NCBI RefSeq assembly: GCF_900109955.1
Contig: NZ_FOJB01000001.1
Location: forward strand, 1,488,001-1,552,000
Direction of reading: 5' to 3'
Source: Aliiroseovarius sediminilitoris
GTDB taxonomy: Bacteria > Pseudomonadota > Alphaproteobacteria > Rhodobacterales > Rhodobacteraceae
Length of the DNA stretch: 64,000 bases
Below, piece after piece: positions 3,792-47,224 of this stretch. How positions within the stretch are numbered: position 1 is the first letter of the stretch; every line of letters starts with the position of its first letter. The notes beneath the pieces are model-generated. The model was not told the DNA's origin. It did not search any database and was given only the letters and a program-made list of their open reading frames with translations. Position numbers and translations under genes: made by a program.

Positions 3792-3831
3792 GTCTGGCAT
3801 ACCCCCAATTGACATAAAGAGGAGCCGACAG

Positions 3832-21031: not shown

Positions 21032-21032
21032 C

Positions 21033-22658: not shown

Positions 22659-22669
22659 CGTATTCTCCC

Positions 22670-24316: not shown

Positions 24317-25215
24317 AACTTCCTCCCAACGTGGTGTCTCCCCACACCGCTAGATAAGTTGAACATATAACTTGAACAATTGTCCAGAAAAATGGACCAG
24401 ATAGCCGATCGGGTCAGATTAACGATTATTGACAAGGGGTTACGGATAGGGCGACGCCGGTAAGCACGGTTGCATACATTCGAATCAACGCGCGGCAGTG
24501 ATGCAAGATCCCGGGATTCCTTCGTTCGAAGGCGGCGCGTCTTTCGCCTCCTGGACAGGCGCGACGGGGAGGCAAGCGTTGCTGTGGAAGACTCAACATC
24601 AGCGATGCACGGTCTATGGAATCAGCCAAGTGAGTGGTGTTGACCGGTCCGAATATGATAGCCGTTGGCTTTTGCGTGCTCACACATCGCATCCAAACTG
24701 GTTATGTCAAAATAGCTCCAGATCTTGTTGATTGGCGGGACGCCATCGCAAGAATGCACGCAGGCGTCCTTAGCAATACCGCGCTATATACCTGGTCACT
24801 TTATACTGGTGACTTTCCACAAGGAAATCCGGCTGTGAAACCGACCCGACCAACGCGCCAGCTACAGACCGCTATTTATGTGGTCAAAGCTACCGCAAGG
24901 CATCTTTGCGAATGTCGTCTGTCTGATTCAGTTCCATAGTCAGCCTAATCTCTTGTAGTACGGCTATCAGACGAGTGGTATCAAACCGCGACAGGTCCAT
25001 GTCGGCCATTAACCCTCATTGGACACTGGTCACATAATTCTTGATTGGATGATCTCGGGTCGGTCGAAACGCGGGATTGAACGACCACTCAATCCAGCGC
25101 GTGATCGGCGGAAATATGATCCTTTTCGTCCGTTTTCAATTCAAAGTTGACAGATTGCCGTGCGGACGAGCAGGCTGAGCCTATTCAAAGAACTTATTGT
25201 GCGAAGTGGAATGTC
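24317..25215. other. Gene-poor 0.9-kb stretch of lower GC
   Basis: Between the GMC operon and the giant-protein operon I find no gene with a family match or a ribosome site. From about 24430 to 25140 base composition is visibly lower in GC than its surroundings. Short frames exist on both strands (for example a minus-strand frame at 24622-24783), but none is convincing. The left 100 bases hold the probable operator of the GMC operon; the right end should hold the promoter of the giant-protein operon, where only TTGACA at 25147-25152 stands out, without a clear -10 partner. Degenerate acquired DNA is the likeliest reading. Confidence 0.6.
24373..24397. promoter_or_regulatory. Candidate TetR operator ahead of the GMC operon
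   Basis: TGAACAATTGTCCA (24373-24386) is a 14-bp palindrome with one mismatched pair, and GTCCA/TGGAC (24382-24397) forms a second, overlapping inverted repeat around GAAAAA. They lie 57-81 bases upstream of the GMC start, in AT-rich promoter-like DNA. The TetR gene inside the operon is the natural binding candidate. Confidence 0.5.
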
Positions 25216-25413
25216 ATGTACACGCTTATCGCAAATTACGGACTGGCACGCGCGTTTCGTGCGGAATTTGTGCCGTTTCTGATTGCGCTCGTTGTCGCGC
25301 AACTTTTCTTCAAATGGGGCAGTTTTGGTTTGGAGCTTCTGGGATTTATCGTCCTGTGGGCTGTTTTGGGCTTCGTCTCTGATCGCGTCATGCCGGCACC
25401 CGGCAAGGACTGA
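25216..25413 (+). CDS. Small membrane protein, first gene of the giant-protein operon
   Basis: A 65-residue protein with two hydrophobic segments (about residues 17-32 and 36-55) separated by a short polar turn, ending in a short charged tail. The frame runs further upstream, but ATG 25216 begins the coherent membrane protein; GAAGTGGA at 25203-25210 is a modest binding site. I know no family name. It is followed after 69 bases by the 253-residue gene, in the same direction, and may anchor or export part of the downstream system; it could equally be an independent small gene at the operon border. Confidence 0.55.
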   Translation: MYTLIANYGLARAFRAEFVPFLIALVVAQLFFKWGSFGLELLGFIVLWAVLGFVSDRVMPAPGKD

Positions 25414-25482
25414 CGCGACACACCTATCGATGTCAACGCACATCACGCTTGTTGGATCATCCAGCAAGCGAGGAGGATCGCT

Positions 25483-26244
25483 ATGGGCAAATCGCCCCGA
25501 CCTAAACCGAAAGTCCGACAGGATGCGAAGCGTCCGGCGAAACGACCTGAGGCGTCTTTACCCGACACCCATCTCGGTGATCTTGAGCGGCTGGTTGGAG
25601 ACGGCGCATTGCGGGTCGCGATTGATCGTTTGCTTGAACGGACACCGGACAAGGACATCGACAAAGACATTGATAAAGTGTGCAAAAAGATGTTTCAGGC
25701 GCTCAGAAAGCGCTGCCCACATCTGGTGCCGGATCGCCCTGTGAATACCGGTCAAATCGGGCCCAGGATTGATCTTGGGCCGAAAACAGTGGTGACGCTG
25801 TTTCGTGGTGCAGCGGTGAAGCTGGCGGGCGACAAGCAAACCGTCTGGGTGCTGGGCGACAGCGAAATGCTGGTTTTCGCAAGCCGCGTGGTGCTTGAGA
25901 CAGAACCGGGCCGGATTGTCGTTCATCTGCCGGTCAGCACCGATCAGACCAAAGATGTGGTGATCAAGGTGCCCTTCGCAGTTGGTTCTGAAAAGCGCCC
26001 CGCGGGGCTGATGGCGACCACGCCCATGCGCCCCATCGGGCCAGAGGAGATAGTGGAAATATGGGCCGATGCTCTGACGGCCTTCGCCTGGGGTGCCGTT
26101 CTGACACTTGCCGAGGTGCTGGCCAACCGTGCCGGACAAGACCCCGACCGCAATGGACTGATCGCATTCAACCTTCTGGCGGGGGCAGGGGGGCTGACCA
26201 TTGGCACGATGGCGCGGCACGGATTTGACCGGAGGGCGCCATGA
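25483..26244 (+). CDS. Uncharacterised 253-residue protein of the giant-protein operon
   Basis: No family recognised. AGGAGG at 25471-25476 gives a strong start at ATG 25483. The first 25 residues are very basic (Lys/Arg/Pro). An acidic/basic helical stretch with a DKDIDKDIDK repeat lies near residues 63-75. A beta-rich middle (residues 95-185) has DLGPKTVVTLFRGAAVKLAG and VVLETEPGRIVVHLP. The C-terminal 65 residues form helices with one semi-hydrophobic segment (LTAFAWGAVLTLAEVLA). Its stop overlaps the start of the 3247-residue gene in ATGA, so the two are translationally coupled. An adaptor or chaperone for the giant protein is a reasonable guess and no more than that. Confidence 0.75.
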   Translation: MGKSPRPKPKVRQDAKRPAKRPEASLPDTHLGDLERLVGDGALRVAIDRLLERTPDKDIDKDIDKVCKKMFQALRKRCPHLVPDRPVNTGQIGPRIDLGPKTVVTLFRGAAVKLAGDKQTVWVLGDSEMLVFASRVVLETEPGRIVVHLPVSTDQTKDVVIKVPFAVGSEKRPAGLMATTPMRPIGPEEIVEIWADALTAFAWGAVLTLAEVLANRAGQDPDRNGLIAFNLLAGAGGLTIGTMARHGFDRRAP

Positions 26245-29200
26245 GCCTTGATGCTGCCGATTTTGGAGATCTTGAAGACGTCCTGAAGGCGCTTGGATTT
26301 GCCGGCGACAGCGGTGCGCTTAATGAAGATTGGCTGGCCGATCCGATCACCTATCTGAAGACGATGCTCGCCAATGAGACGCAGCGAGAAGCACTGCTGG
26401 CGGTCATGGATCGGCTTTTGGAAGGAGAAACCGAGATTGACGGCGAGGGCCATCAATGGCTGCCGGTCGTGGCAAGCGATGATGGCGCTGCGACTTTCTA
26501 TTTTGTCATCGACGATGAGCCGGAAACCGAAGTTCACATCGGGCTTGGCGTGCGGCTGAAAACGACGGACCCAGACACGGCGACCTCGTTCTTCGTGCCC
26601 CTGTTCCGTGCCGCGAAAGAAGGCCACTCCGTCCCGGACCCGGTGTTGATCGGTCATCCGGGTGGCAAACTTATTCTGGCAAGCGAGATTGTCGTCGATC
26701 CCAATCCGCCCAGCGGCGAAGCGGGGCTAAGATCCATTGGTCTGGCCTTCACGACGCCCACAGCTGCGGGGGATGGCGATCCGGCGGTGGCACTGACACT
26801 TGGCGGGCTGTTTCTGCCGGGGTTCTCGGCACCGCGCGATTTCTCGCTCTCGGTCTCTGATCTTGATACGCTTGATGAGTCCGCGCTGGAGTTGATCCTT
26901 GGCATCATCCAGGCCATGGCGGATGGCGGTGCCACGCCCGAGATCACCGCGCTGGCCGGGCTTCTGGGGCTTGCAGGGTCCGTGCCGCCCCTTCCCATCG
27001 ACGGGCTTGTCAATCAGGGGCCGCAGGTTCTGGCCGACTGGTTTGCAGCACTCATGGGCGACAGCGCGGCCAAGTCTGCTTGGCTGCAAGCGGCGGCCAA
27101 CCTGATCGGAGGTGCGGCGAGCCTGTCGGGTGATACGCTTGCCATTGATCTGGGCGGCGGGGTCAGCGTGGATCTGGTGATTGGGGTCGTGACCGGATCG
27201 ACCGGGCGGCCTGTCGTGACGCCCTCGATTTCTTTCGGGATCACGCAAGGGTCGGCCAGGGTCGAGGTGGCTGCGGACCTTCTGAAACTCGATCTGGGCA
27301 CGGGTGCTGCGGTCGCCGTTCCTGCGCTGTCGGCGCAGGTGAGACTTGGCAATTCTGGCGCGCCGCTTCTTGTGGGCGATCCGGGGATCGAGGCTTTGCG
27401 CGCTGGTATCGCCCTTGGGCCGTTGCGCCAACCCATCGCGATCCTTGCGTTGGATCAGGTGGTGATTGCGGGCAACTCCTACGAGGTTCTGGACCTTTCC
27501 ACCCCGGATGCCATAGCCGAAGCGGGCACGACGGTGATCGGCGACGTAATTGCGGACCTTCTGGCGCAGCTTGGCCCCCCCGGCACGGCGATTTCGGTTC
27601 TCTTGGGTATCGCGCCCCCTGCCGGCGCACCAGGACTGCCGACGTTAGACCTGTCTGCCTTTCTGGCTGACCCCCTGGCCGCTGTGCGAAACCACTGGCT
27701 TGGGCTTCTTGGCAGTCACGTTGGCGATATTCCGGAGGTTCTGGGCGCGCTGCGCGGACTGTTGGCCGATGCGGCGGTGGCGGCCGATCCTGTAACCGGG
27801 AATGGCACCATCGACACTCCTTGGCGGGTCGGGATCACGGGACCGGTTGCTTTGCTCATTCGTCAGCCCGATCCGGGCGTGATCGAGCTTGCCGTCGGAC
27901 TTTCCGCGACGCAATCCGAGTTGGGCGAGCGCTGCACGGTGCTGGAAACCAGCATAGATATACTGATCATGCGGGCGGATCTGGCCGCACCTGACGCCGC
28001 CTTCGCCGCAAATGTCACCCTGACCATCGACGCCCGTGGGCGGGGCACGCGACGCACGGCATTGGGTGATGATCCGTTGGCGATTGCCGCAGATCGGGTG
28101 AGCGCCCGGTTCGGTTGGAGCGCCACAGAAGGTCTGTCAGTCAACTTTGCCGCGCCCAACCCCGCATTGATCGTTCGTGAAATCGAGATCCCGCTGGATA
28201 TCCCAAACTTCGATCAAGGTTTTGACGCCCTGACACCCCAACAGTGGGATGCCATCGAAGAACTGATCGGACTTTTAGGTGCTTCCATTGCCGCGCCTTG
28301 GGCGTTGGATATTCTGACTGCCATTGGCTGGCGGCGCGCCGGAGTTCTGGCCGAAAACACCGCGATAAACCGTCTGGCGCTGTCCGATCTGATCGCCGAC
28401 CCCGATGCAGCTTTGCGCGCTTGGCTTGGTCGGCTGATCAGTGATCCGGGCGGGTCACTGCGCAAGGTGTTGGAGCCTTTGGGCCGTGTGATGTCAGGCA
28501 GTCGCGAGCGATTTGGTGTGCTCTCCGGGCGTGGCGCGCCCGACGATCCTTTGCGCATGAACCTTGCGCCGGACCTGGGTGGTCCAGCTTTGGGGCTTTG
28601 GACGATGCCCGGGCGCGCAGTGCAGGGCGACGGGCAGGTCCAGTCAGAAGCGCTTCGACAGTGGCGACCCGGAGACGCGCCGCTCGATACGGCCTCGCTT
28701 GCCGCGGGTATCGTGGTCGAACTTGCGTCGCGCGAAGGTCTTGTTCAGGCAAGCGCGCGGATTGCTGCGTTGGCCGCCGGGATCGATGCACTTGAGGCAC
28801 GGCTTTCGGGCACAGATGGCCTGATAGTGCCGCCGGATGTCCTGCCGGATGGTGCGACGCGTCATGAAATACCCAATGTCGCCGGACCGGGTCTACGCGA
28901 AGCCGTTGATCTTGAAGCCATATTTGGGAATCTACCCGGCACGATCCTTCATCTGGCCGTTGCAAACGAAGCCGACGCCTTCCCGTTTGATGCCGCACCT
29001 GAGGACCGCAGGATTGACTTGCGCCCCGCAGGCCGCGCGCCTGACACGTTCGAGGCACCGACCGCCGCGCCGGGCGAATGGTTCATCGCGCTTGGTCCTC
29101 GCGCGGATGTTGCGCTGTTGTCCGGCGATCCCGACGGCACCGGAGGGCAAACCGCGCGATTGGCCAGGATGTTCGCTGCGTTCTCGACGGTGGGCGGTGA

Positions 29201-32200
29201 CGTTGCGGTGGTGGCTGATGCAGCGGGTGCCCATGCGGCGTGGTTGGCGGCTGAAAATGTCGGGGCAGGATCGGTCAACCGGCTTTTGACGCTTGGCATG
29301 CCGCTGGTTCCGGCGGCGTTTTCGATCTTCGATCTCAATCCCGGTGCCGAAGCCTTGCGAACTTTCCTGGGGCTGCTGCCCCCCGAAGACCCCGGCACAC
29401 CTGACGATGATGCGCTTGGCTTTGCCCGCGCGGCGTTCGGCGCCTTGTCCGGTCTGTCGCGGTTCGCCGACCCGGCCGCCGAACTCAGCCCTCCTGCCAA
29501 CCTGCCAGGAACCGTCGCTGCGGGTCTGAACCTGCACTGCGTCTATGGCATCTTTGACCGTGCGGCGATTCGGGCAGGTCTGACAGCCGCCGCCGCGGCC
29601 GGTCTCAGCGAACGGGCCAGCGTGCAAGCTGGTTTCGAGGCCAGCGCCACAGTGACGGGCGCAGGATTTGGTCTTCTTTTGCCGATTACACCCGCCAGCG
29701 GGGGACTTACCGTTTCGGGCCACGTGGCTGTGGAACTGGGTGCCATCGCGCTTGATCCTCTTCCGTCACTCACGGATGAGCGCAGCGTAAGACTGCATCT
29801 GGAGATCCGCCGGGATGGTGGTTGGCTGCTTGGTGGTCCGGGGTCCGGGGCAGGGGCGGCACAGGAACTGCGCTGGATCGCCGTCGATATCGCGGTGCCC
29901 TTGGGCGCGTCCGGGCCGGTAGAAGCCGAGATCAGACTGCATGATGCGGTTGTCTTTGGTCTGGCCCGCGATGTTTGGGTTCTGCGCGAAGCGGGGGCAG
30001 ACGCCGCCGAGGGTGTGGTTACAACAGCGCTGCCCGAAGTGCGGGTGCTGCTGTCATCCGTCGTGACCGAAATCCTGAGCGATCCCAGCCCAGAGATGGG
30101 AGCGTTAGCCGATTTGCTAAGCGCGATCGGCGTTATTGATGATCTGGGCGGGCTGGTGGCCACAGCGCTGGATCGCGTGCTGCATGAACCCGATGCGCAG
30201 GTGCGCGACGCGCTTCTTAGCGCTGCAAGGGTCTTGGATTTGCAGGGTGCCGCTGACACGATATTCGCGGGTATTCCGGGTTTGAGCATCGACATCGCCG
30301 CCCGGTCTGTCTCGTTCTCACTTGCCGGATCGGCTCCGTCCCTGGGGCTGCCCAATTGGAGCGTTTCCGCCAGTGCCGCAAGCTCTGGCCCGATCACCGC
30401 AGACCTGAGCATTGGGGCTGCGTCCTCTGGTGCGCTGACGGCCTCGCTTGACCCCTTGGAGATCAGGCTTGATTGGACACCTCCGGGTGCGGCACCAGTA
30501 AGCCTGCCCATCTGGCCGAACGCCGATCCCGCTGCTCTGGCCCAGGAAGGCGCGCCGCTGACCATTGCCAGTGCGGTCAAATTTGGCGTCGATTACATGC
30601 GGTCTCAGGATGACGGTGCGAAACTGATCATCGACGGGCTACTTGAGCTGTTGGGGTTGTTGGCTGCCCCTGGCCCGGATGGTGATCGGGCAATGGTCAC
30701 ACCCATCGGGCTGTTCCGCGATCCGGTGGCATGGCTGAAAAGCGATGCGGTCTTCGGGCTGGCGGGCGGCTATGACGCAAGCCGTGTAGGTGCGGCCTTC
30801 GACGCGTTGCGCCCATTCCTCGGCCTGTCCGGCGCGCCGGGACGTTGGGACGTCGCGGACGGTGTGGCAATTGAATTGACTGGCGCAGGGGGCGTGCTGG
30901 ATCTGGGATTGGCGCTGGATAGCGACGCCATTGGTGGCGGGGCGGAACAACTGGCGTTTGGTGGTCGGTTCGGGCTTTTGATTTCAGACACAGCACCGGT
31001 TGCGCCAAACATCGCCGTCTTTGCCGGGTTGCCAAGCGCAATCCAAGGGCGCAGCGCCGTGCATTTGAACATTTCCGCTGAAGTCAGCCTGTTTCTGAGA
31101 AATGCAAGTGGCACGGATTTGCCGCTTTACCCCAATACGCCGGGTTTGGCCTCGCTTGCGGGCGCGGCGGTCGAGACCGCGCTGCCCTTGGCCTTGAACG
31201 CGCTGGTCGATGCGGGCGGAACTGCGGGCGACGTTGTGGCGGCTGTGGGCGATGCGCTTGTATTGCGCGAAGGCACACCGCTTGAATTTACCGGCCCACG
31301 GCTGTCTGCGTGGGCAAATGATCCCGAGGGCGAGCTTGCCGCACGCTGGCCTGCGATCACGACCGGAGCATTGAACGCGCTCGCAAACGCGTTGGCACCG
31401 GTTCTGCCGGTCGGCGTGTCGGCTTCATCCAGTGCTGCCGGGTTGGACATCATCGCAGGACCGATCACCCTGTCGCTGGAGACCGGGCCATTCCGCTTTG
31501 CCATCGGATATTCCGACACCGGGTTGCCGTTCGTTGAAACCGTCACGACGGCAATGGCCTTCGATGCGGGCGGGTTGGACGAATTCACCGGCAGCATCGG
31601 ACCTGCGTTGATTGATGCAGGCGGTGCAAGCCTGTTCCCTGTGGTTTCGTTCGAGGTCGGGGAAAACATCACCGTTCCCTTCGTGGGCCTTGGCCTTGCG
31701 ATTGCGGGGGACGGGGTGCAGGTGCTGACGCTGCGCACAATCCTTGATCCGTTGGGCTTTGAGGTTGTGTTCGACGATGGCGACGGTCCGGTGTCGGATC
31801 CGGCCAGCGTGGCCTCTGGCCTCTTGACCCTGACCGTGGGCCTTGTGGTCGATTTCCTGCGCCAGACCGACCCGGTTCAAGACCTTCTGGAAACCGAAAT
31901 ACCCGGCACCGGCTCGAGCGATATCGAGGATCTTCTGGAAGGTGTGATCTTGCTGGATGGCGACACCAGCCAGCTTGACTTGGCACTGTTCCAACTGATT
32001 CCCACGCCGGGGCAGAGCGCCAGCGACATCCGCGACAACTTCATCGCGCGGATGATCCGGCTGATCGAAAACTTCGCCGATGCGGGTCCGTCCGTGACCA
32101 TCGACAGTATCCTGACGGTGGGTCTGGCGCGCGATGGCAATGCGATTGGCGTGAATGTCGGGCTGACGTCACGCCTTCCGCTGACCTCGGGCGATGTGGT

Positions 32201-35200
32201 TGTTTCGATCGAAAATGACAGCCGCTGGATCAAGGACGCACCCCCGGCAGGGATCGTGATTGGGCTGGTCGAAACAAGCCCGACTTTGGGCTTCGCACCG
32301 TCGATTGCCGCCAATGGGCTGGGCGTGCGCATCGGCAAGGACGGTGCGCCGCTTGTCGATTTCGGCCTGTCGCTTGGCTCGATCGCGTTGCATCTGTTTG
32401 GCCGGATCGGCAATGGACCACCCGCTGGTGGTGTGCAGGTGCAACTTTCCGACCTTGCGGTCAGCGTCTCCGGTGGAACCGGCGGCAACCCTGTGGCGCA
32501 GGGCATCATGGACGAAAGCTCGGACAGTGGGCAGGAACTGGCGCCGATGTTCAGCCCCGCGCTTGCCATTCAGAAACACGGGTCCGATCCGGTGATGGTG
32601 CGGCTGTCGGCGGGCGAAGGCGATGGGCCATGGTGGCTGTCGATCAAGAAGGGCTTCGGGCCGCTTTACGTCGATCAGGTCGGACTGGGCGTAACCCAGA
32701 CCGGTGAAGAGCTTGAAAAGATTTCGCTTCTGTTTGATGGCAACATTTCGATTGCCGGGCTGACGGCGGCTGTGGATGATCTGCAACTGACCTATTCGCT
32801 TGATGCCGGACCTGTCTATGACCCCGGCAGTTGGAGCGTTGATCTGTCAGGCCTGGCCGTCAGCGCCGATCTGTCCGGCGTGCAGTTGGCAGGGGGTCTC
32901 AGGAAATACTCGGACCCCGGCAATCCCGAAAATGTCGAATATGTCGGCATGTTGCTGGCGCGGTTTGCGGCTTATGGGCTGTCGATTTACGGCGGCTATG
33001 CCTCGATCGAGGAAAATGACGAGGGACGTTATACAGCCTTCTTCGCTTATGGTGCCATTGTTGGTCCCATCGGTGGGCCGCCTGCGTTTTTCCTGACAGG
33101 TATTGGCGGCGGGTTCGGCATCAACCGCGAGATCGTCGTGCCCGATGATCTGTCGAAATTTGATGAGTTCGTGATGATCAAGGCGCTTGATCCCAGCGCC
33201 TCGGCCCCGTCTGACCCCATGGCCGAGATGGACAGCGTGCGGGTCACGTTCCCGCCGCGCAAAGGCACGTTCTGGTTTGCCGCCGGGATCAGTTACACCA
33301 GCTTCATGATTGTCGATGGCGTGGCGGTCGTCGCGGTCGAGTTTGGCAACGGGTTCGAGTTGAACATCTTTGGCTTGGCCCGGATGGCGCTGCCGCGTCC
33401 GCAATTCCGGCTGGTCTCGATCGAGATTGCGCTGGTGGCGCGGTTCTCGACCGAAGAGGGCGTGATCTGGATACAGGCGCAACTGACCGACAATTCCTGG
33501 CTGCTTCATGAAAGTGTGCGGCTGACGGGCGGCTTTGCCTATGTTTCTTGGTTCGGTGGGCCGAAAAAGGGCGAGTTTGTCCTGACATTCGGCGGCTACC
33601 ATCCGAAGTTCCACCGCGACGGCTATCCGGTGGTTCCGCGTCTTGGCTTTCATTGGCAGCCGACCAGCAATATCGTCATCAAGGGTGGCAATTACTTCGC
33701 GTTGACGTCCGAGGCGATCATGGCAGGGGGCGGGCTTGAAGCCTCGGCCACGCTGGGGCCAGCCTGGGCCTATGTGGCCTATGGTTGCGATGTCATCATC
33801 TATTTCGACCCGTTCCGATACGAGGCCGAAGCCTATGCCAAGATTTCGGCGGGCGTCACGATTGATGTCTGGATTGGCAAGATCACGATCAAGATCAGCC
33901 TTGGGGCCAGCATCTATGTCGAAGGGCCGGAGTTCCGTGGCGAGGCGCGCTTCAAGGTCGGGCCTGTCAAGCTGAAGGTAAAATTTGGCGCAAGCAGCCA
34001 GTCTTCCCCCAATTACATCACCTGGACCGATTTCGTCGTCAAATACCTGGAAGAAGCACGACCGGGCACGGCGCGGGCGCTATCGGCCATCGCGGGCAAC
34101 GGGGCCTTGCCACCCGGTGGCGAAGAAGGCACCGCGGACGGGTCCATCGACCATCCTTTCGAAGTGATGAGTGAATTCGAGATGACGGTGACGACCACGC
34201 TGCCCGCCGACCGTCTGGTAGTCGGCACCGCAAGCCCGCAGAATTATTCCACGCTGCCGCTTGGATTGCCACCGATCAACGCCTCGTTGGACGGGTCCGA
34301 ATTGTCGCTGTCGCTGATCCGGGTCGACACGGACGCCGAGCGGATCAACGAAACCGGCGTCACGGTTCTGGGCCGTTACACTGGCAAATTCCCGATGGCC
34401 GTCTGGGGTCCGCCACAAGAGCTTGACAAGAAGTCCATGCCCAAGGGCGAAGTGCTGGACGCGCTTGAAGGCGCGCATATGACCGTGAAGCCCTCGCGCA
34501 TTGGAAGGCTGCCGCCCGAGATCGCCTTCAATCAGGTCGAGGCCGGACCGCGCAAACCCCTGCCATTCGTCACCGAGGCCACCGTGCGCCCCGGCTTCCT
34601 TGCCGATATCGGCGGGCTGGTCGCGACTGTGCCGGGCGGGTTGGATCCGAACGAGATATTCGAGCTTGAACAAAACATCCTGGCGCAGAACGGACTGGGA
34701 AAGGCGGCTTTGGCGGGACGCGCAAATGCACGGGTCGCGCCGGGCCGTATTGGCTCGCTCGGCGAACGGTTGGCGGTTCCCGAGGCAGCGACGCTGGGTA
34801 ATGTCCTGAGTGCAGCGCCGGTGAAGGAACTGGACCTGTCGGTCAAACCGCCCCGCGCTGCCGCAATCCTCAGCCCCGAAATCCGCGCCGAGGCCGCGCC
34901 AAGGATCACCACTGTCAGAAACACCGATCAGATCCAGCGCGTGGCCGCCCCAAGCCTTGCACAGATGCGGGCCGGCCTTCCATCACAACTTCCTGCGGTC
35001 CTGACCCGTGTCGACACCGCTGCGCGTGGTCAGAAGACGGTCATTGCGGGCACCCGCCCACCTGTGACGCAATCGGCGCGGGCCAATGCAAGCTTTGTGG
35101 CGGGGCTTGGGCAGGATGGTGCGGCGGCAGAGCGTCTGGCGGCGTTCGACCAAGTGGCAACCGGGCCTGCCCGGCGCGCGGCAACGGACAGCGCACTTCT

Positions 35201-35984: not shown

Positions 35985-35985
35985 T

Positions 35986-38076: not shown

Positions 38077-39110
38077 TGGCCAAAGCAACCCTGACCGCCG
38101 AAACCGTAATGAACGAAGCCGTGGCCGCCATCGAAGGCGTCTTGGTGGCAACAGACGTCGATGACTACACCGATGATGACAAAATCACGCCTCGGGAAGT
38201 CCGGCAGTTTCTGGCGCGGCTGCGGCTTCTGGAAGGCGTTCCGTTTTCCAATCTGGTGGCTGACAGCGCGTTGCTTCCCATCGAATCCATTCGCTTTTTC
38301 TATGTCGATCGGGGATGGACCGATGCCTTGACCCAAGGTGCCTTGTCGGTCGGAACGGTCAACACGGGGGACCGGGCACAGCTTGACCGGCTTTATGGTG
38401 CCATAGAAGACGAGATCGACAGTGAGGAACGTCTGGTGCGTCTGCCCGGCGGTGAAGAACGTCAAGCCGGGCGCGCTGGGTTGATGACGGGGTTTCTGCT
38501 GCGGTCCCGGGCGGTGTCGGGTTGGCCCGGCCTGCATGTGCGGGCCTATGCGCGTGAACCTGACGGCAACGACGAAGAGATCCTGCCCGAGTCTCATCCA
38601 GACAGGCTGAAACTTCTGCGGCTGGAACGACTGGCCCCGGCGGTGATGCTGGCGCTGTTCGACGGAATGCCCGAGGTCGTTCACATCGAGGAACCCAAAC
38701 GGGGGCTGCAATTCGGTGTCAGCTTGAAACAGACTGTGGCCAATACCTATGCCGCGTCGATCCCGGCGCGGAATGTGCAGACGGCCAATTACGTGGATGA
38801 GAACGGCAATGAGGTCGAAACGATGGCCGAAGCCAAGCGCCTGCCGGTGCGCTTCCGGCCCGGCAGCCCCGGTGTGCTGGATCTTGCCAACACGGGCCGC
38901 GCGTTTCTTGAGGATGACAGCCTTGGCATGGGGTCTGAGCTTGATGGTGCCGAGTTTGCTTTGCAGATGATCCGCTTCCCGTATCGACAGGTTTTTGGCG
39001 ACCCCCAAGTGACAAGCGATTTTGATATCGCCGCCGTGTTTCGACCGACGTTATCGAAAGAAGTGACAACGCTGGCGGCTGACTTTGAAAGGGTGTTCGA
39101 TGCCGATTGA
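38073..39110 (+). CDS. Uncharacterised 345-residue protein of the giant-protein operon
   Basis: ATG 38073 (or 38076) overlaps the stop of the previous gene. Near the N-terminus DVDDYTDDDKITPREVRQFL is an acidic, EF-hand-like loop followed by a helix, though one loop is not proof of calcium binding. Then LPIESIRFFYVDRGWTDAL and, near residue 135, GLMTGFLLRSRAVSGWPGL, conserved-looking blocks I remember from unnamed proteins in actinobacteria and other phyla. The rest is mixed alpha/beta with a RLLRLERLAPAVMLALFDG-type helix. No export signal. It overlaps the next gene by 11 bases. Function unknown. Confidence 0.8.
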   Translation: MMAKATLTAETVMNEAVAAIEGVLVATDVDDYTDDDKITPREVRQFLARLRLLEGVPFSNLVADSALLPIESIRFFYVDRGWTDALTQGALSVGTVNTGDRAQLDRLYGAIEDEIDSEERLVRLPGGEERQAGRAGLMTGFLLRSRAVSGWPGLHVRAYAREPDGNDEEILPESHPDRLKLLRLERLAPAVMLALFDGMPEVVHIEEPKRGLQFGVSLKQTVANTYAASIPARNVQTANYVDENGNEVETMAEAKRLPVRFRPGSPGVLDLANTGRAFLEDDSLGMGSELDGAEFALQMIRFPYRQVFGDPQVTSDFDIAAVFRPTLSKEVTTLAADFERVFDAD

Positions 39111-42100
39111 GCTTGATCCCCAGGCGTTGGATATCGCCATCTCGTCGCCGCGTTGGTCTGTCATCGCACGCACGGGACTTGGGGTGGACGACTTTGCGAC
39201 CTGGGACCCCAAGATCATCCGCAAACCGCGGTTGATCGTCCCGATTGATGTGCAGGCACTTTATGTCGAAGAAGGTTCGACCGAAGCGTTTGTGCGCCTC
39301 CCGGGTGCTGTGTCGACACCTGATGGTGAACCACCAGAGCCGACCCCCGCACCGCTTGATCCCGGTGCGCCGCGTCCTTCGGGCGTTCATTTGCATTGGG
39401 CGATGCCCGATGCAGTGATGAACGGTCAGATGCAGGATGTCGATGGTGACGGGCTTGGCCTTGCGGCCCTGCCGAACCGCTGGCTGGTGCTACGGCTTCT
39501 GGCCCCCGACCGGGCCGAACGGATGGCCGTCACCGGCTGGGTGATCGAAGCCGATACGACGCGGGTCATTCCACTGAAAGACTGGAAGGAAGAGACCGAC
39601 CAGGGCTTGTCGCCGACTGGCAAGACGCTGAAGGGTCGCGACTTGAATGCAGGTGCGGGCGGAAGTCTGGCCTGGACCGCGAGCTATGACGCCACGTTCA
39701 ATCGTTTTGCCTTCCACGATCCGTTGAATGATATAACGGAAGCCGCGCCAAATGGGGTTTTCGGTGATGTGGCCACCTATCTGATTGCGGGCTGGTGGAG
39801 CCGCGCGGCCGAGGACCCTCTGGATGCCGCTCGCACCGCATCGGGCTTTGCAAGCGTGACCGAGGATTTGGGTTGGCGGGTCAACAGTGACACCGGCGGG
39901 CAGACGGCGGTTACAGAACAGGCGATGCTTTACCAAGCAGAGCTGACCAATTTCGGGGTAGAAAGCGCCACCCGCTTTTCACTGGTCGATACCGGTTCGC
40001 TCGCAAGCTCAACTGCGCTTTCTGGCGCTCAGGGAGCCGAGGTGTTCTTGCCCGAGGGCGGCCGGTTTGTGGCGGTGGAACCCAAACATATCTACTCCAC
40101 TTTGTTGAACGGGATCGTTCATGGTGTGCCAGTCACAGGCCCGGTGCCCGCCGATCAGCGCCCCGATCCCCGCCGGGTTCGTGCAGCCCTTGGCCCGCAG
40201 GTGGAAGACAGTATCGCCGCACTGACGGCGGCAGCGATGGAGGGCGATGATCTTGACGCCCGGGCCGAAACCGAGCGGTTGATCGCGGCATTAACCAATG
40301 ATCAGGTTGCGAAACTGGGCGAACGCAATGGCGCGGTCGAGATCGAAGAACGCGAACATGCCGCCCGGTTCGAGGCCGAGCGCGGGCGGGACTATTCGAT
40401 CGAAAAGATCATAGATCGTGGCGGGCCGGAGAACCTGATCGCCGGTCGCGCGGCGCGCAATCGGGCCGGTAATACGGAACGTCAGGAAACCGAACGCACG
40501 CTGGCGACCGAACTGACGTGGTCGGCCACCAAACCCGGTGTCGTCAGTGTCGTGCCGGACCATCTTGGGTTCACTTCGAATTATTTCGAACGCGACGGCC
40601 GCGCGCAGGCCGAACCGAAAGTGCGCAGCGTGCGCCGCCCCGGCCCGCGCTATTTCCGGGCTTTGGAACCTGTGGTGGCGATCCGCGATGCCAAACGCTC
40701 GCGTCGCCATCAAGAGGACGGTGTGGCGTCGCCCGACGGGACATTGACCTGTCGATGGCCGAGCCAGATACCAATTGTCATTCCAGGCGGCATTTCGGGC
40801 CGTCAACATTTGGGACCCTTCCCGCATGGCGCGCTGCCGGACGAGGTCGTCAGGCTGGCGCAGAATGCTGTGATCACTGATCCGTTCACAACACCCTGGC
40901 TTGCTGAACAGGCCGCGCCGACAAGCCCGTTTCCACAAAGCGTTCTGGCCGCGAGGCTGCGGGGCGAAGTGGCGCTGCGTTATTCGCGCGACGGGCTTTA
41001 CGACGGGACTGTGCCGGGTTTTTCCGCGCCGACCCGGACCGGCGAGGCGTCCGTGCCCGGCCCGATGGAGGCCGCTTTGGGCGATCAACTGCGCCGCCAT
41101 TCCTTGCTGGACGGCGTGGATGCGGCGCCGTTGGGTGTGACCGTCTGGGCGCAGCCCTGGTCGCCGATCTGGTTGGAATGGGAAGTCGAGCTTGATCTGA
41201 CTGATCGGCTGACAGGTTGGGCGCTGGGCCAGGTCGATTACGATGCGGCCCCACCGCCGGGCGGCTCCACCAGGGTCGTTTCAGGCCGCAGCCCCATCAA
41301 CAATGGCGCTGCCGAAAGCCTGACAGCGACCGTCACGAACTGGATGACCGCCGAGGATTTGCGCGATATCGACGATGAAGGGCAGCTTGACGAAGACGGC
41401 GAAAAAGAGGTGCGCGCGGTCTACAAGCACCTGACGAATGCTGATGTGATCTCGGCCACGTTAAGCGGTATTCACGAAGCCTTGTTGGGCTTGCCAGAAG
41501 CACCGGATGGGCAGGTCGAGCAACCAGATACAAAGATCGCACCGATTGATCTGCCACAGCTTTTGTTCTCGGGCCGGATCAGGATCAACACAGCGCGTTT
41601 GGTGGATGCGTTCGGCAGAGTGCTCGATGTGGAGCCGGGCAGGGTGGTGCATCCTGCGGCCTTGGTCCAACCCGGTCCGTGGTTGGAACTTCCCCCCCGT
41701 TTGACGCGGCCCGCGCGGATTGCGTTCCGGTTGGCCGATCCGGCGGATGGTGCAGCCCTGCCGCGAGAGGCGACGATCAATCAGGAACGCCCTGACCTGA
41801 TGGTGAATCCGGTGGCCGGGTTCCTGTTGCCCGATCTGATTGACGAGGCGCTGGAAGTCTTTGATGCCGCTGGCACGCCCTTGGGGCAGTTGCAGCATGA
41901 ACCCATCGGCGGTGGCGTCGTATGGGAGATCGCACCGGGACGCGAAGGGCCGGCAGATGCCGGACCGCTTTTTGACCTTCGCCCTGCCGCGCAGCCCCTG
42001 GGCCGTTTCGCGGCGGCGATGATCGAAGCCGATGCGCGCACCCGGGGTGGCACGGCGCTCAGCGCCAAGCGTGAAACGGCGCTTTCGGCTTTTCTGCGGG

Positions 42101-42900
42101 CGGTTGATACGACGCTTTGGTCGATTGACACATTCGCCTCGCTTGGCACGCCGCATATTGCAGGGTTGGTCGGTCGACCGATGGCGGTGGTGCGGGCGAC
42201 GATCCGGATGCAGATCTATGACGATCTCGATCTCTTGGATCTGTCTGCGCCCGGCGCCCGTGACGCGCGCAAGGCGGTTTATGACGACCTGGCAGATCGC
42301 GCCTTTCATGCGCGTCTTGGCGAATTCACCCGCGATGATGACGGGGTATATGGCTATTTTATCAACGACGACTATCGACGCTTCCATGTGGTTGACAAGA
42401 TAGTCAAAACCCGCGCGCTGGAAAGTGGGCGGCGCAGGGGCCAGTTCGCTTCGTTGGGCGCATCGCGCATTCCCGCGCCGGACCCGATCGATCACCCCTA
42501 TCTGGTCGGCGAGGATGAGTTCCCCATTCATCTGGGCGAGGTCATCCGACTGACGATCCTGATGCATCCGGCGGGCAAGGTGCACCTGACTTCCGGCATT
42601 GTGCCGCGAAAATCGCTGCAACTCGCGCGTGATTGGGTGGATCCTGGGCTGGGACGGATGGCACCGTCGGCCCGGATTGGCCCGGTGCTGATCGACCCTG
42701 ACAAGGTGCGCCTGCCAAAGATCGCCAGTTTTGGAGAAGATCAGATCTGGACCCGACGCGACACGCCGTTTTCCTGGAAGGACGACCCCATTCTGGCGGC
42801 AACGCAAGCCGCGCTTCTGCCGGATGCGCCGGCGGCGATCGAAGAGGGATATGTGCGCATAGCCACCGCACCGATCCCCGGCAACGAGGAGGAGAGCTGA
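39100..42900 (+). CDS. Uncharacterised 1266-residue protein of the giant-protein operon
   Basis: ATG 39100 follows GAAAGGG and overlaps the previous stop; an earlier in-frame ATG at 39085 is possible. Residues 90-110 contain PSGVHLHWAMPDAV, followed by a beta-rich region (to about 350) with AGWWSRAAEDPL. Residues about 365-460 are helical and highly charged. Then PWSPIWLEWEVELDLTD near residue 690 and a C-terminal domain (about 980-1240) with LTSGIVPRKSLQLARDWV. These blocks recur, as I recall, in unnamed bacterial proteins of similar size. Essentially cysteine-poor, with no signal peptide or membrane segment. The gene ends in TGATG shared with the beta-propeller gene. Function unknown. Confidence 0.82.
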   Translation: MPIELDPQALDIAISSPRWSVIARTGLGVDDFATWDPKIIRKPRLIVPIDVQALYVEEGSTEAFVRLPGAVSTPDGEPPEPTPAPLDPGAPRPSGVHLHWAMPDAVMNGQMQDVDGDGLGLAALPNRWLVLRLLAPDRAERMAVTGWVIEADTTRVIPLKDWKEETDQGLSPTGKTLKGRDLNAGAGGSLAWTASYDATFNRFAFHDPLNDITEAAPNGVFGDVATYLIAGWWSRAAEDPLDAARTASGFASVTEDLGWRVNSDTGGQTAVTEQAMLYQAELTNFGVESATRFSLVDTGSLASSTALSGAQGAEVFLPEGGRFVAVEPKHIYSTLLNGIVHGVPVTGPVPADQRPDPRRVRAALGPQVEDSIAALTAAAMEGDDLDARAETERLIAALTNDQVAKLGERNGAVEIEEREHAARFEAERGRDYSIEKIIDRGGPENLIAGRAARNRAGNTERQETERTLATELTWSATKPGVVSVVPDHLGFTSNYFERDGRAQAEPKVRSVRRPGPRYFRALEPVVAIRDAKRSRRHQEDGVASPDGTLTCRWPSQIPIVIPGGISGRQHLGPFPHGALPDEVVRLAQNAVITDPFTTPWLAEQAAPTSPFPQSVLAARLRGEVALRYSRDGLYDGTVPGFSAPTRTGEASVPGPMEAALGDQLRRHSLLDGVDAAPLGVTVWAQPWSPIWLEWEVELDLTDRLTGWALGQVDYDAAPPPGGSTRVVSGRSPINNGAAESLTATVTNWMTAEDLRDIDDEGQLDEDGEKEVRAVYKHLTNADVISATLSGIHEALLGLPEAPDGQVEQPDTKIAPIDLPQLLFSGRIRINTARLVDAFGRVLDVEPGRVVHPAALVQPGPWLELPPRLTRPARIAFRLADPADGAALPREATINQERPDLMVNPVAGFLLPDLIDEALEVFDAAGTPLGQLQHEPIGGGVVWEIAPGREGPADAGPLFDLRPAAQPLGRFAAAMIEADARTRGGTALSAKRETALSAFLRAVDTTLWSIDTFASLGTPHIAGLVGRPMAVVRATIRMQIYDDLDLLDLSAPGARDARKAVYDDLADRAFHARLGEFTRDDDGVYGYFINDDYRRFHVVDKIVKTRALESGRRRGQFASLGASRIPAPDPIDHPYLVGEDEFPIHLGEVIRLTILMHPAGKVHLTSGIVPRKSLQLARDWVDPGLGRMAPSARIGPVLIDPDKVRLPKIASFGEDQIWTRRDTPFSWKDDPILAATQAALLPDAPAAIEEGYVRIATAPIPGNEEES

Positions 42901-45900
42901 TGCGATACAACTGGCCGGGTCGCGGACGCGCTGGCATCGACTTCGCCGCTCGTCGTCACGATTTCAATGCCTTCACCGACATTCATGCGCCAGAGGGATT
43001 GTTTGACGAAATCTTTGGCAATCGCGCGGATTATCTGCGCGTTCTCGAAGATCTGGGCGCTTTTACCGACGCCAATCGCTGGATTCCGCTTGGACCGACG
43101 GGAATGATCAATGGGCAAGCGACCGGCAACCCTGTCGTGGCCGGACGCGTCCGGGATCTGCAAGTCTCGCCAGATGGCAGCCGGGCCTATGCCGGTTCAG
43201 CCAATGGTGGGGTGTGGGTGACACTCGATGCCGGGCAAAGCTGGGCACCGCTTGGCAGTTGGGGGGTGAACCCCAGCGCGGCTTCGGGCACGGGCGGGCG
43301 TGTGCAATCGTTGACCATCGGCGCGCTTGATGTCGAGTTCGGCGCGACGCCGGATGACGATGTGATCTATGCCGCGACCGGCGAACTAAGGGCCATCACC
43401 GGGCGGACCCATGCTGATGATCATGCAGGGGTCGGCATATTGCGGCTTGATGGCACGCTTTCCAGTGCCTTGGGAAGCGTGGGATCAATCCCCTGGCTGC
43501 GCGAGGGGACCGCGCTGCGGGGCGCAGGGGTATTCAGGCTGACCCATGAGCCAGGCGTGCCGCTGTCGTTCGACCCCACTGGCAGCAATGTGATGATCGC
43601 GGCAGCGTCGTCCGGGTTGTATTTTCGCGATGGCCCGTTTGTGGCGGATGCAGCTTGGGATCGGATCGAACGCGCGCCCTTCGACTTTGATGCCGACACC
43701 TGGCCGCATGTTTCGGATGTGTTGTGGACCGGATCGACCCCGAAACGCATCTTTGCAGCCCTGACCCACAACGAGACCGGCAAGACGGCTGTGTATGTCA
43801 CCGAAGGCGGCCCGGACAGCAATTACAGCAAGATCAGTTTGAATGGCGTACGACGCGGGGCGCGGCTGAGCATGGCCGTCGCGCCGTCCAACCCGGATGT
43901 GGTCTATGTGCTTGGCACCGGTGCACATAACCGCGCACGGCTGTGGCGGATCGAAGGCACCGGCCCCGCACGTGTCGTCGATGATGTCCCGCCCGGTCTG
44001 TTTGGCAAGCCGAAGATGGATGGCACCACTGTGAAGGTGGACGGCAATTCATCGCATTATAACAACTCTGTGGCGGTCGATCCGACGAATGAAAACATCG
44101 TCTATGTCGCCGGATCGACGATCCGGGTCAGCAATGTCTCGAACGCGAACATGCACAAGCTGACGATCAGCGGCTCCCATGCCGCAAACGACTACAGCAC
44201 GGATTTCAACACCAGTAACAACCTCGCGGCCGAGACAGACGCGACCTTTTTCGGCAACATGGCACATGCAGACGTTCACGCAATCCGGCCCGTCGGAAGC
44301 GAGGTCTGGATCGGGTGCGATGGCGGGGTTTTTGTGGATCGCGGTTCTGGCATGGTGTCGCTGAACTATGGGCTTGCCATTTCGGAACCCGGTTTTCTGG
44401 CGTGCCATCCCGACGTGCCAGGTGCGCTTATTGCAGGCACGCAGGACAATGGCCGGATTGAAAAGGTTGGCGGATCGCTCTGGCGGCTTTGGCGCAAGGG
44501 CGATGGCGGGGGCGTTGCGTATCACACGACCAACCCGGCCTACTATCTTGGTCAATATACCGAAGCCTCATGGCGGGAAAATCAGGGACGGTTCACGCGA
44601 CCCGTCTTTCGGACCACGGTTGCTGCGGGCAGCGCTCCGCCCGAAAGCGAAACCAAAGAGAACGACGCCTCGCTGTTTTACAGCGGAATCGCTGCGGTGG
44701 CAGGCGAGGTGGATGAAACCCGCATCGCCATCGGCACGACGCGCGTGTGGTTTTCGCCCGATTGGAACCCGGCAAATGCAGACAATACATGGGTAACACT
44801 GCCATCGGGTGAAGATGCCCGCACGCCGGGATCGGAAAATGACGGGCAGGACAAGTTTGGCGACGATGAAATGGCGGTGACGCTGCGCTGGGCACAGCGC
44901 GGCGACGCGACCAATGATTTCGACGGTGCGCGGCTTTTGATCCTGACCAACAAGAACATCTACCAATACAGCTTTGATAAGGCCGAGGACAAATGGACCG
45001 CTCACCGGTTCACCGAAAAGAAGATGAAGAACCGGATCCGCAAGAACGAAGATATCGAGACCGGTCCATCGGAAAAGCTGCCCTATATCGGCAAATGGAC
45101 CGATGTCTTTTCCCATGACCGGACGCGCGGCAGCCACGGCTCGTTTTACGTCGCGACGACGTCCAAATCGAAGATGACAGATACGGGCGAGGTTGGTGAA
45201 GCAGACCGGATGGACACGCTGTGGTGGTTTGACGGCGAAGAGACCTGGCATCCCACCGGATTGCGCAATCAAGGGCTTGATCCGCTGGCTGGAACCTCGG
45301 GCACCAAAGCCCCACAGTTTGCGGTTGTGGTCCATCCTGACGATCCGAATATCGTTTTTGTCGGGGGAAGTGCAGGTGTGTGGCGCGGTGTATTGAGCTT
45401 TTCAGGCGACACGCCAAGTTGGAACTGGACCGGAGAACTGAACGGTCTGCCGCAGGCCGTCGTGCAGGATCTGGTGATTTTCCGAGAGGGGGATCTGAGG
45501 CTTCTGCGTGCCGCATTGGAAAGCCGGGGGATCTGGGAGTTGAATATCTCGGACTCGTCAACGTCAGTGGGCAATACCTACCTGCGCGTGACCAACCTTG
45601 ACACCCGGCAGGCCGAGATTGATGCCGCGCCGATTGACCCGTTGAGTTCCACCAGCCCCCCTGCGACCTTCACGCTGGATATGAGCCCGGACATATATGT
45701 GCATGGTTCAGCGGCGCCGCCGCCCTGGGGCATGGGGGTCTTGCCCAATGAAGCGCAGATGTTCGATCGAACCGAGCGTGAGCGCACGCCGTTCAGGCTG
45801 AGTTTTCGCCGTTCGCCCGGCACTTATCCGACCTATGTCATGGTGCATCACCGGGACACCGATCCATTGGCGGGCAATCAGGTCACGGTGGTCCTGCTGC

Positions 45901-46268
45901 GTCTTGCCAATGCGCCAGTTGATTTGACCACGGTGCCAATCGATACGCCGTGGCGTCAGGCTGTGTTGGCTTTGATGGACGGGTCGTCAAACACGCCGCC
46001 CGCGGGCTGGGCTTTGGCCGAACCAGGAGCACCCCGACGCAATCTAACCGGGCCGATTGAAGCCCGCGTGCCGCGTGCGGTGGAGTTCGCTGTCGATCTG
46101 TCCCACCCGGTGACAGACGCATCGGGACAAGATGACGAGTTGCTGGTGGCAATTGTAAACTCGACCCGAGATCCGCTTTCGCTGGCACAGCTCAATCGCA
46201 ACAATCTGGCGATGCTTATTCGCCGCAGCCGCAAGGTGGCAGCGCGAAGATTCCGCCGCCGCAGTTGA
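42900..46268 (+). CDS. Predicted beta-propeller protein (BNR/sortilin-like repeats), 1122 residues
   Basis: Residues about 55-900 show repeated propeller blades. The first, VAGRVRDLQVSPDGSRAYAG followed by GGVWVTLDAGQSW, is a classic blade with an Asp-box; others include VAPSNPDVVYVLG, VDPTNENIVYVAG and VVHPDDPNIVFVGGSAGVW. This is the pattern of sialidase/VPS10/xyloglucanase-type propellers, but no catalytic set for sialidase is evident. Residues 900-1122 are beta-sandwich-like and end in a very basic RRSRKVAARRFRRRS tail. No signal peptide. ATG 42900 shares bases with the previous stop. It may recognise a surface glycan or protein for the operon, an inference from fold only. Confidence 0.8.
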   Translation: MRYNWPGRGRAGIDFAARRHDFNAFTDIHAPEGLFDEIFGNRADYLRVLEDLGAFTDANRWIPLGPTGMINGQATGNPVVAGRVRDLQVSPDGSRAYAGSANGGVWVTLDAGQSWAPLGSWGVNPSAASGTGGRVQSLTIGALDVEFGATPDDDVIYAATGELRAITGRTHADDHAGVGILRLDGTLSSALGSVGSIPWLREGTALRGAGVFRLTHEPGVPLSFDPTGSNVMIAAASSGLYFRDGPFVADAAWDRIERAPFDFDADTWPHVSDVLWTGSTPKRIFAALTHNETGKTAVYVTEGGPDSNYSKISLNGVRRGARLSMAVAPSNPDVVYVLGTGAHNRARLWRIEGTGPARVVDDVPPGLFGKPKMDGTTVKVDGNSSHYNNSVAVDPTNENIVYVAGSTIRVSNVSNANMHKLTISGSHAANDYSTDFNTSNNLAAETDATFFGNMAHADVHAIRPVGSEVWIGCDGGVFVDRGSGMVSLNYGLAISEPGFLACHPDVPGALIAGTQDNGRIEKVGGSLWRLWRKGDGGGVAYHTTNPAYYLGQYTEASWRENQGRFTRPVFRTTVAAGSAPPESETKENDASLFYSGIAAVAGEVDETRIAIGTTRVWFSPDWNPANADNTWVTLPSGEDARTPGSENDGQDKFGDDEMAVTLRWAQRGDATNDFDGARLLILTNKNIYQYSFDKAEDKWTAHRFTEKKMKNRIRKNEDIETGPSEKLPYIGKWTDVFSHDRTRGSHGSFYVATTSKSKMTDTGEVGEADRMDTLWWFDGEETWHPTGLRNQGLDPLAGTSGTKAPQFAVVVHPDDPNIVFVGGSAGVWRGVLSFSGDTPSWNWTGELNGLPQAVVQDLVIFREGDLRLLRAALESRGIWELNISDSSTSVGNTYLRVTNLDTRQAEIDAAPIDPLSSTSPPATFTLDMSPDIYVHGSAAPPPWGMGVLPNEAQMFDRTERERTPFRLSFRRSPGTYPTYVMVHHRDTDPLAGNQVTVVLLRLANAPVDLTTVPIDTPWRQAVLALMDGSSNTPPAGWALAEPGAPRRNLTGPIEARVPRAVEFAVDLSHPVTDASGQDDELLVAIVNSTRDPLSLAQLNRNNLAMLIRRSRKVAARRFRRRS

Positions 46269-46587: not shown

Positions 46588-47202
46588 TCATCCCGTGGCA
46601 CCGTACAGCCGACTTGTCAGGTCAAAGGCGCGTTCAGCTCGCTGGGCGATCGCGGTCCGATCCAATACATCCATCCGGCCCAGTGCTTGCCGCAGTTGCA
46701 CCTCTCCGAACAGTAAGCTGATATAGCTTTCGGCGGCATCGGCGGGATCGGTGTCATCGCGAAACCGGCCCGCAGCGACCAATTGCGTCATGATGGCGGT
46801 GATCAAGGCCACCATCTCGTGGCGCGCGGCACTGTCAATTGCTTCGCCCAGAAGGCCAGTTTCGTCTGCATCTGCGATGGCTGCCCGGTTCATGATAATC
46901 GCCTTCTCGCCGGTGGTGAACGCCAGCAGCAGGGGGCCAAGGGCGCGCAGGGTGTCCTGTGGGTCGGAATGATTGTCCAGCGCATCCCGAAGCAGGTCTT
47001 TGACGTTTCGCGCGTTTTCTTCGATCAGGCTTTGAAACAGCGTTTGCTTGTTGCCATACCAGGCATAGAGCGTCTGGTTTGACGCCGCTGCTCGCTTGGC
47101 AATCTGCAACATACTGGTGCTGCGATAGCCCTTCTCGGCGAGAACGTCGAAGGCGGCGGCTTCGATCTGGCGCCGTCTTTCATCTTGTTTATCCGGAGTC
47201 AT
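46588..47202 (-). CDS. TetR family repressor
   Basis: A 204-residue TetR protein. The helix-turn-helix is at about residues 10-55 (RRQIEAAAFDVLAEKGYRSTS, ASNQTLYAWYGNKQTLF). The C-terminal domain is of the common TetR_C type with RDALDNHSDPQDTLRALGP and DTDPADAAESYISLLFGE. ATG 47202 is preferred because it begins the domain; the longer frame to 47241 would run through the operator. It is divergent from the DUF6544 gene, and two matching inverted repeats lie between them, so it probably represses both directions. The inducer is unknown. Confidence 0.88.
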   Translation of the reverse strand: MTPDKQDERRRQIEAAAFDVLAEKGYRSTSMLQIAKRAAASNQTLYAWYGNKQTLFQSLIEENARNVKDLLRDALDNHSDPQDTLRALGPLLLAFTTGEKAIIMNRAAIADADETGLLGEAIDSAARHEMVALITAIMTQLVAAGRFRDDTDPADAAESYISLLFGEVQLRQALGRMDVLDRTAIAQRAERAFDLTSRLYGATG

Positions 47203-47224
47203 GGTGTGCTTTCTCGATCTGTCT

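Follow-up and report, generated by a model that had tools for sequence, protein, structure and literature searches.

The window analysed here, a 64,000-nucleotide stretch of the Aliiroseovarius sediminilitoris genome (contig NZ_FOJB01000001.1, positions 1,488,001 to 1,552,000 of the forward strand), carries a cassette of seven genes, P1 to P7, one of which encodes a giant protein with a DUF6603 domain. The original prediction, made from the sequence alone, had described seven plus-strand open reading frames (ORFs), closely packed from position 25483 on, and all seven have the places and lengths it gave. P2 and P3 overlap by 4 nt (26244/26241), P3 and P4 lie 1 nt apart (35984/35986), and the remaining junctions are overlaps of 4 nt (P4/P5, 38076/38073), 11 nt (P5/P6, 39110/39100) and 1 nt (P6/P7, 42900/42900). 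For P6, an in-frame TTG at 39085 would provide an alternative start and a protein of 1271 aa. The features of the cassette are listed below, where counts of relatives refer to 76 loci (labelled L) obtained by scanning one genome per species with a DUF6603 alignment.

25105..46268, plus strand: whole cassette, a conserved unit of ~21.2 kb (DNA homology to three sister species)
25105..25152, plus strand: conserved leader block, identical in the four sister-species copies; the sequence before it is unalignable
25216..25413, plus strand: P1, 65 aa, small hydrophobic (membrane) protein (ORF)
25483..26244, plus strand: P2, 253 aa (ORF), at the position of the enzyme gene of other classes
26241..35984, plus strand: P3, giant DUF6603 protein of 3247 aa (ORF and Pfam)
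26241..32240, plus strand: N-terminal ~2000 aa of P3, degenerate ~200-aa repeats (profile self-comparison)
32643..34049, plus strand: DUF6603 domain, P3 residues 2135-2603, the most conserved part of P3 (Pfam)
35986..38076, plus strand: P4, core protein of 696 aa, relatives in 69/76 loci
38073..39110, plus strand: P5, core protein of 345 aa, relatives in 66/76 loci
39100..42900, plus strand: P6, core protein of 1266 aa from its ATG, relatives over 400 aa in 64/76 loci
42900..46268, plus strand: P7, propeller-like protein of 1122 aa, at the position of the fibre-like gene of other classes

The two protein parts that had been placed from the sequence, a DUF6603-like region and a beta-propeller, are both recovered by profile methods. 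PF20248 (DUF6603) matches P3 with 400.8 bits against a curated cut-off of 27 (E = 1e-119); P3 is thus a full member of this family, which itself has no assigned function, and its domain is 96% identical to that of locus L011. In the N-terminal part of P3, segments near residues 200-390, 400-620 and 640-790, together with others, align with one another in the profile self-comparison, with the best pairs at 94.5-97.8% and distant pairs weaker. A P7 profile matches the BNR-repeat hydrolase chain 3b7f (E = 4e-6), and single-sequence searches with P7 return nothing at E <= 1 in Pfam or in the Protein Data Bank (PDB). The N-terminus of P7 is conserved (M.RY.WPRE). Besides DUF6603, a Pfam scan of P1-P7 at E <= 1 yields no family, and scans with NCBIfam, PHROGs and PADLOC give nothing convincing.

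The DUF6603 protein, P4, P5 and P6 form the core of a conserved, transferable gene system. Because the scan used one peptide pattern of DUF6603, the 76 loci are a sample; the other core proteins were found by profiles built from the first hits. Sixty-three loci extend at least 6.5 kb beyond the DUF6603 gene and are testable, and the remaining 13 end early. In all 63, relatives of P4, P5 and P6 lie on the same strand as the DUF6603 gene, and their order is kept in 62 by profile coordinates and in 61 by ORF starts. ORF starts in GC-rich DNA are often called too far upstream, with some lengths inflated, and the disorder of L030 by ORF starts is an artefact, its order being normal by profile coordinates. 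The true exception is L043, in which a P6 fragment lies upstream. P4 and P5 are fused into one gene in many loci, which implies that the two act together. In addition, pairwise identity co-varies among the four core proteins (rho 0.63-0.77, with 0/500 permutations as high). The togetherness of the four is far beyond chance. This outcome agrees with the conserved multi-gene system that had been postulated, for which a gene-neighbourhood survey had been set beforehand as the test. The propeller had been counted among the co-occurring genes; this holds within the window's class, and the propeller, 253-aa and 65-aa genes are absent from the wider system.

Other collections give the same picture. 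Among 72,556 plasmid records, an identical set of 8 is matched by P4, by P5 and by P6; three of the 8 are strains of one Streptomyces species. DUF6603 is found in all but one of the 8 and in 7 further records. Eight genomes in an evenly drawn sample of 398 Pseudomonadota, the window's included, have DUF6603, and P4, P5 and P6 adjoin it in all 8; two of these are near-identical and some are shared with the 76 loci. In the class sample, DUF6603 is present in 3/385 genomes, namely the window's genome and G262, both with the core, and G237, which has a weak P4 match ~12 kb away and no P5 or P6 in the stretch examined. Since some genomes seem to be the same as scan loci (G727/L014, G505/L025, G262/L041, G851/L011 and G843/L012), the phylum- and genus-sample counts are not independent of the 76 loci. 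In Desulfosporosinus (L052:8326-11999), P5 and P6 are separated by two extra genes, of 565 and 670 aa.

The 76 loci span seven phyla (Pseudomonadota, Actinomycetota, Bacteroidota, Bacillota, Acidobacteriota, Cyanobacteriota and Sumerlaeota), which supports the original suggestion that the 696-, 345- and 1266-residue proteins share sequence blocks with proteins of other phyla. The 7 further plasmid records with DUF6603 come from four haloarchaea, Streptomyces europaeiscabiei, Paraburkholderia and Gemmatirosa. A P4-like gene lies at DUF6603 in all 7 (E of 9e-12 to 2e-8 for six; the Gemmatirosa match is weak, with E = 2e-4 and an ORF overlapping DUF6603), and no P5 or P6 relatives are detected in these 7 of the 14 DUF6603 plasmid records. 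On the haloarchaeal plasmids (L093, L094, L095 and L113), DUF6603 adjoins the P4-like gene and further very large genes. On the DUF6603 tree the phylum label changes 13 times, the minimum being 6, with Arthrobacter and Holophagaceae rows falling among Burkholderiales. This result suggests transfer between phyla, a suggestion tempered by the long branches of a quick tree. Movement between distant bacteria, as originally envisaged, thus stands as far as the seven phyla and the differing sites within the genus are concerned, and its cross-phylum part is suggested and unproven.

Within the genus, the cassette is sharply bounded and lies at differing sites. P5 is present in 5/16 genomes of the genus. 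Homology to the sister species G844, G851 and G843 starts at 25101, 25066 and 25105 and ends at 46270, 46269 and 46263, with DNA identities of 86, 82 and 81%, respectively. In none of the six pairs of the four copies does a flanking match exceed 100 bp (~5 kb left, 8.6 kb right), and the four species therefore carry the cassette at four different sites. In G844, the window's left-flank gene lies on another contig and is 70% identical, as compared to 86% for the cassette. The leader block includes TCGGCGGAAA (25105-25114), CCTTT (25121-25125) and TTGACA (25147-25152), and its conservation points to a probable promoter/operator region. A promoter scan gives one weak promoter-like site, outside the conserved block, versus 1.2 expected. 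A terminator scan gives four terminator-like sites versus 1.2 expected, all before and inside the first gene, and none after P7, whose stop codon is the right edge of the cassette. An empty site was not seen in the genus, as none of the other 15 genomes holds a real equivalent of the right flank. A prophage or an island with an evident integrase was considered for the window and rejected: the ten flanking genes scanned either resemble housekeeping or regulatory genes or are without a match, no recombinase is seen in the flanks scanned, and a tRNA-Ser gene is 12.5 kb away. A TetR-type regulator (46588-47241, minus strand) lies just after P7, outside the cassette, and may or may not regulate it.

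The window belongs to a class of loci (L011-L039) that have the giant P3, P2 before it and, where there is enough DNA, P7 after P6. No P7 was found in L020, L025 and L033; the last two have a related gene in its place, which in L025 encodes an astacin-like metalloprotease. P2 is the least conserved of P2-P7 between sister species (74-85%). Of the 21 window-class loci with DNA upstream, 12 have a P1 relative, and no other locus of the 76 has one. In the family, P1 is found in 2/100 genomes, the two with a close P6 relative; a widespread, unrelated small gene was thus rejected, and P1 is kept as a class-specific part because it occurs only in cassette-bearing family genomes. Loci L040-L086 are without P2 and P7. 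Among these, L040 and L042 bridge the two classes, as they combine a DUF6603 giant of 3.2 kaa with an upstream Lipase_3 gene (at the 5′ position in L042, one gene further up in L040) and a fibre-like protein of family F5 after P6. After the cassette in two alphaproteobacterial loci (L040:21321-22135 and L041:11380-12329), acyl carrier protein and beta-ketoacyl synthase look-alikes are seen by eye.

In the classes other than that of the window, the gene after P6 often encodes a protein with a conserved N-terminus, shaft-like repeats and a variable C-terminus. Profile comparisons link the N-termini of the families at this 3′ position (F0-F5 95.8%, F2-L065 94.6%, F2-F28 93.6%, F2-F27 85.2%, F2-L086 82.4% and F5-F16 68.6%). 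Of 20 proteins scanned at or beside this position, 9 have a recognized C-terminal Pfam domain: phage Tail Collar (L054, L049), lactonase/YVTN propeller (L045), kelch (L046, L048), F5/8C (L068, L005, L076) or Fib_succ_major (L051). The C-terminal tips are exchanged on a constant core in the Streptomyces group. In the 40 closest pairs listed, P6 is 72-93% identical and the 3′ N-terminus 59-91% identical, and the tip local score is at most 114 in 38 of the 40; clearly related tips are found only in L074/L079 and L078/L083. For L076/L080, identities reach 93% (P6), 90% (DUF6603) and 81% (N-terminus), and the tip can be aligned over 20 aa.

Enzymes of several kinds are found on the other side of the core. 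A tight 5′ gene was defined as co-directional and within 120 nt before the DUF6603 gene; L067 and L071, in which the called ORFs overlap by ~300 nt, and L023 and L026, which belong to the window's class, were dropped from the count. Of 14 tight 5′ genes scanned, 5 exceed a Pfam cut-off and 2 match a beta-lactamase fold just below it. The five are Lipase_3 (L042, L061), Exo_endo_phos (L049, by 0.1 bit), Peptidase_C70 (L053) and DUF4135 (L086). The L053 gene (8882-9388, gut-type Lachnospiraceae) encodes a small papain-like protease of Peptidase_C70, the AvrRpt2 family (E = 6e-8), and the upstream gene of a second gut-type Lachnospiraceae locus (L063:8741-9316) is a relative of it. In Ferrimonas (L086:5193-7208), the match is to DUF4135 (E = 3e-25), which we take to be the dehydratase part of LanM lanthionine synthetases. 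At greater distances, a beta-lactamase fold is encoded by the second gene upstream in L005 and a sulfatase 268 nt upstream in L090, and a PhoD-like phosphatase gene precedes DUF6603 in the haloarchaeon L095. An apparent payload difference between the near-identical genomes L097 and L098 was discarded, as it is an artefact of unreadable letters in one of the two.

Signal-like starts, as judged by a crude hydrophobicity test, are absent from P4 (0/66), P5 (0/66), P2 (0/21), the 5′ genes (0/25) and the complete 3′ genes (0/37), which fits assembly in the cytosol. Taken together with the gene order, a working model can be outlined. The DUF6603 protein, P4, P5 and P6 would build a large multi-protein complex in the cytosol, to which the flanking genes would contribute exchangeable parts: the gene after P6 a part that binds the target, and the gene before DUF6603, in loci that have one, an enzyme cargo. 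After release by lysis or by some other route independent of Sec, the complex would attach to its target via the tip and then present or deliver the enzyme. In the window's class, P7 and P2 may serve as the binding and cargo parts, an assignment by the positions they occupy rather than by homology to fibre-like or enzyme genes. In its gene logic, the system resembles a fibre-bearing delivery particle. That the cassette encodes a targeted complex of this type, made in the cytosol and carrying an exchangeable binding part and enzyme cargo, is proposed tentatively, at somewhat less than even confidence. The bolder version, in which such complexes would form an undescribed class of tip-bearing, cytosol-assembled particles, unrelated to phage tails and Tc toxins, with exchangeable enzymes and binders, conserved from haloarchaea to many bacterial phyla and spreading between genomes as sharply bounded cassettes, is possible and rather doubtful.

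Several observations weigh against this proposal. A tight 5′ gene is present in only 21/47 loci outside the window's class and is absent from most Streptomyces loci; 7 of the 14 such genes scanned have no match, and in L099 and L065 the upstream gene encodes a LysR regulator or RecG, which argues against the idea of cargo. No docking domain is shared among the 5′ enzyme families, as only lipase-lipase and beta-lactamase-fold pairs matched. Within the window, P2 has no enzyme domain recognizable by Pfam, and P7 is not linked by profile comparison to the fibre-like 3′ proteins and is 89-90% identical between sister species, that is, not exchanged. Paenibacillus sonchi has P4-P5 and P6 without DUF6603. 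Signal-like starts are flagged in 2/66 DUF6603 proteins and 14/63 P6 proteins, the latter attributed, as a group rather than case by case, to a hydrophobic LIVPVEV-type start. A gene for release was not identified. Finally, the two structures modelled, DUF6603 and a P4-P5 fusion, lack global fold matches in the PDB and thus give no structural evidence of a particle. The natural P4-P5 fusion was modelled well (score 82.3), and a search of the PDB with it returned no chain below an E value of 0.046. The model of the DUF6603 homologue from L046 has a mean pLDDT of 76.9, with a core above 90 and long antiparallel beta strands, and no global fold match is present among the PDB matches listed. Nothing better than these matches was obtained from a viral structure library, and PDB profile searches with the P4-P5, DUF6603 and P6 alignments gave nothing below E 0.2.

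In a different explanation, the giant DUF6603 protein would form an amphipathic beta sheet or barrel, holding or moving lipid as ApoB, LptD and the bridge-like lipid transfer proteins do. The best Foldseek matches of the DUF6603 model in the PDB are ApoB100 (E = 1.8e-6), FimD ushers, LPD-3 and LptD, many predicted strands are hydrophobic on one face and polar on the other, the giant, repeat-built size is comparable, and lipases occur at the 5′ position. However, none of the 50 matches listed has a TM-score above 0.19 by query length or above 0.28 by target length, and the resemblance is therefore only local. There is also no sequence match, no Pfam lipid-transfer model was matched, and the exchangeable tips and non-lipid enzymes would be left unexplained, which makes a lipid-handling machine improbable. 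Another alternative is a cell-surface or extracellular scaffold with a cellulosome-like logic, in which the core would display hydrolases together with binding modules, serving attachment and the scavenging of nutrients without delivery into other cells. The lipases, PhoD phosphatase and L090 sulfatase of the 5′ side are typical scavenging hydrolases, the 3′ domains include F5/8C and Fib_succ_major, and in two (L093, L095) of the three haloarchaeal loci with annotation, the large gene two positions after DUF6603 is annotated as encoding a 'BGTF surface domain-containing protein'. The scarcity of signal-like starts in the crude test speaks against such a scaffold, the translated L095 'surface' protein is without an obvious signal sequence by eye, and the exchange of tips on a near-constant core resembles recognition of changing targets. 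We regard this explanation as unlikely.

A degenerate or simplified phage-tail derivative, with the core consisting of highly diverged tail or baseplate parts, would account for the 3/10 scanned 3′ proteins that match phage tail-fibre families. The likeness to phage and tailocin fibres extends to the conserved N-terminus, shaft-like repeats, exchanged tips and Tail Collar domain of the 3′ proteins of other classes; by contrast, the core is without detected phage relatives, and the propeller P7 of the window stands apart from those fibres. P1-P7 have no PHROG match below E 0.1, relatives of P6 and DUF6603 are absent from INPHARED phages and, by one or two peptide patterns each, from IMG/VR (P4 and P5 were not searched in these two collections), the window's genome has no tail sheath (PF04984), and the P4-P5 model is without a PDB match. 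A phage or prophage origin of the core was accordingly rejected, and the derivative is judged quite improbable. A well-known system such as a phage tail or a contractile injection system had been named as the finding that would overturn the original prediction, and no such match of the core was found in the libraries scanned.

Extracellular contractile injection systems (eCIS) are encoded by operons with a fibre-like receptor-binding protein and associated enzymes and have a wide, patchy distribution in bacteria and archaea; their core domains are given as tube, spike, sheath, baseplate, DUF4255, AAA and DUF4157 (PMC8213781). The present system resembles them in its fibre-like 3′ protein (in other classes), the enzymes in its operon and its wide, patchy distribution. 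Unlike them, it has none of the core domains given there in P1-P7 and no recognizable injection tube. A contractile injection system was also rejected because Pfam finds no such domains in P1-P7 and the sheath test with PF04984 is negative in the window's own genome (0/1, with matches in 3/14 controls). Tc toxins resemble the present system in being very large operon proteins without obvious signal peptides and with partly propeller-like modules. They differ from it in that P1-P7 have no TcA, TcB or RHS match in Pfam or NCBIfam; for Pfam, this follows from DUF6603 being the sole match of P1-P7. Polymorphic toxin systems combine a common carrier N-terminus with a variable toxin C-terminus and an immunity gene; here, the variable C-termini are binding domains on the 3′ proteins, and the enzymes have genes of their own on the 5′ side and share no domain. 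A known anti-phage defence system was likewise rejected (0 PADLOC-DB families for P2-P7). Since the domain, sheath and relatedness tests for eCIS, Tc toxins, phages and known defence systems came out negative, the cassette is filed under none of these. The system around DUF6603/PF20248 was not found in the text of 5.39 million open papers, and topic searches gave nothing on it.

If the proposed targeted complex is real, it would be a widespread protein machine, modular in both its targeting and its enzymes, and recognized by no library used. Should the mechanism prove wrong, there would still be a gene set that is conserved in at least seven phyla and has a distant haloarchaeal form, a core pair whose model is without a PDB match, and, in one genus, sharp cassette borders. 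A family without an assigned function becomes directly testable, as its partners, order and unit are now defined.

Two Paenibacillus loci have further genes in the vicinity of the cassette. On a P. polymyxa plasmid (L007), a baseplate-V-like gene and a fragment of a GH-E nuclease (1-3976, record annotation) precede the cassette by ~7 kb, and genes that by eye encode a 506-aa protein and a phospholipase-D-like protein (19959-23092) follow it. In P. sonchi (L006), an annotated PLD-like gene is nearby.

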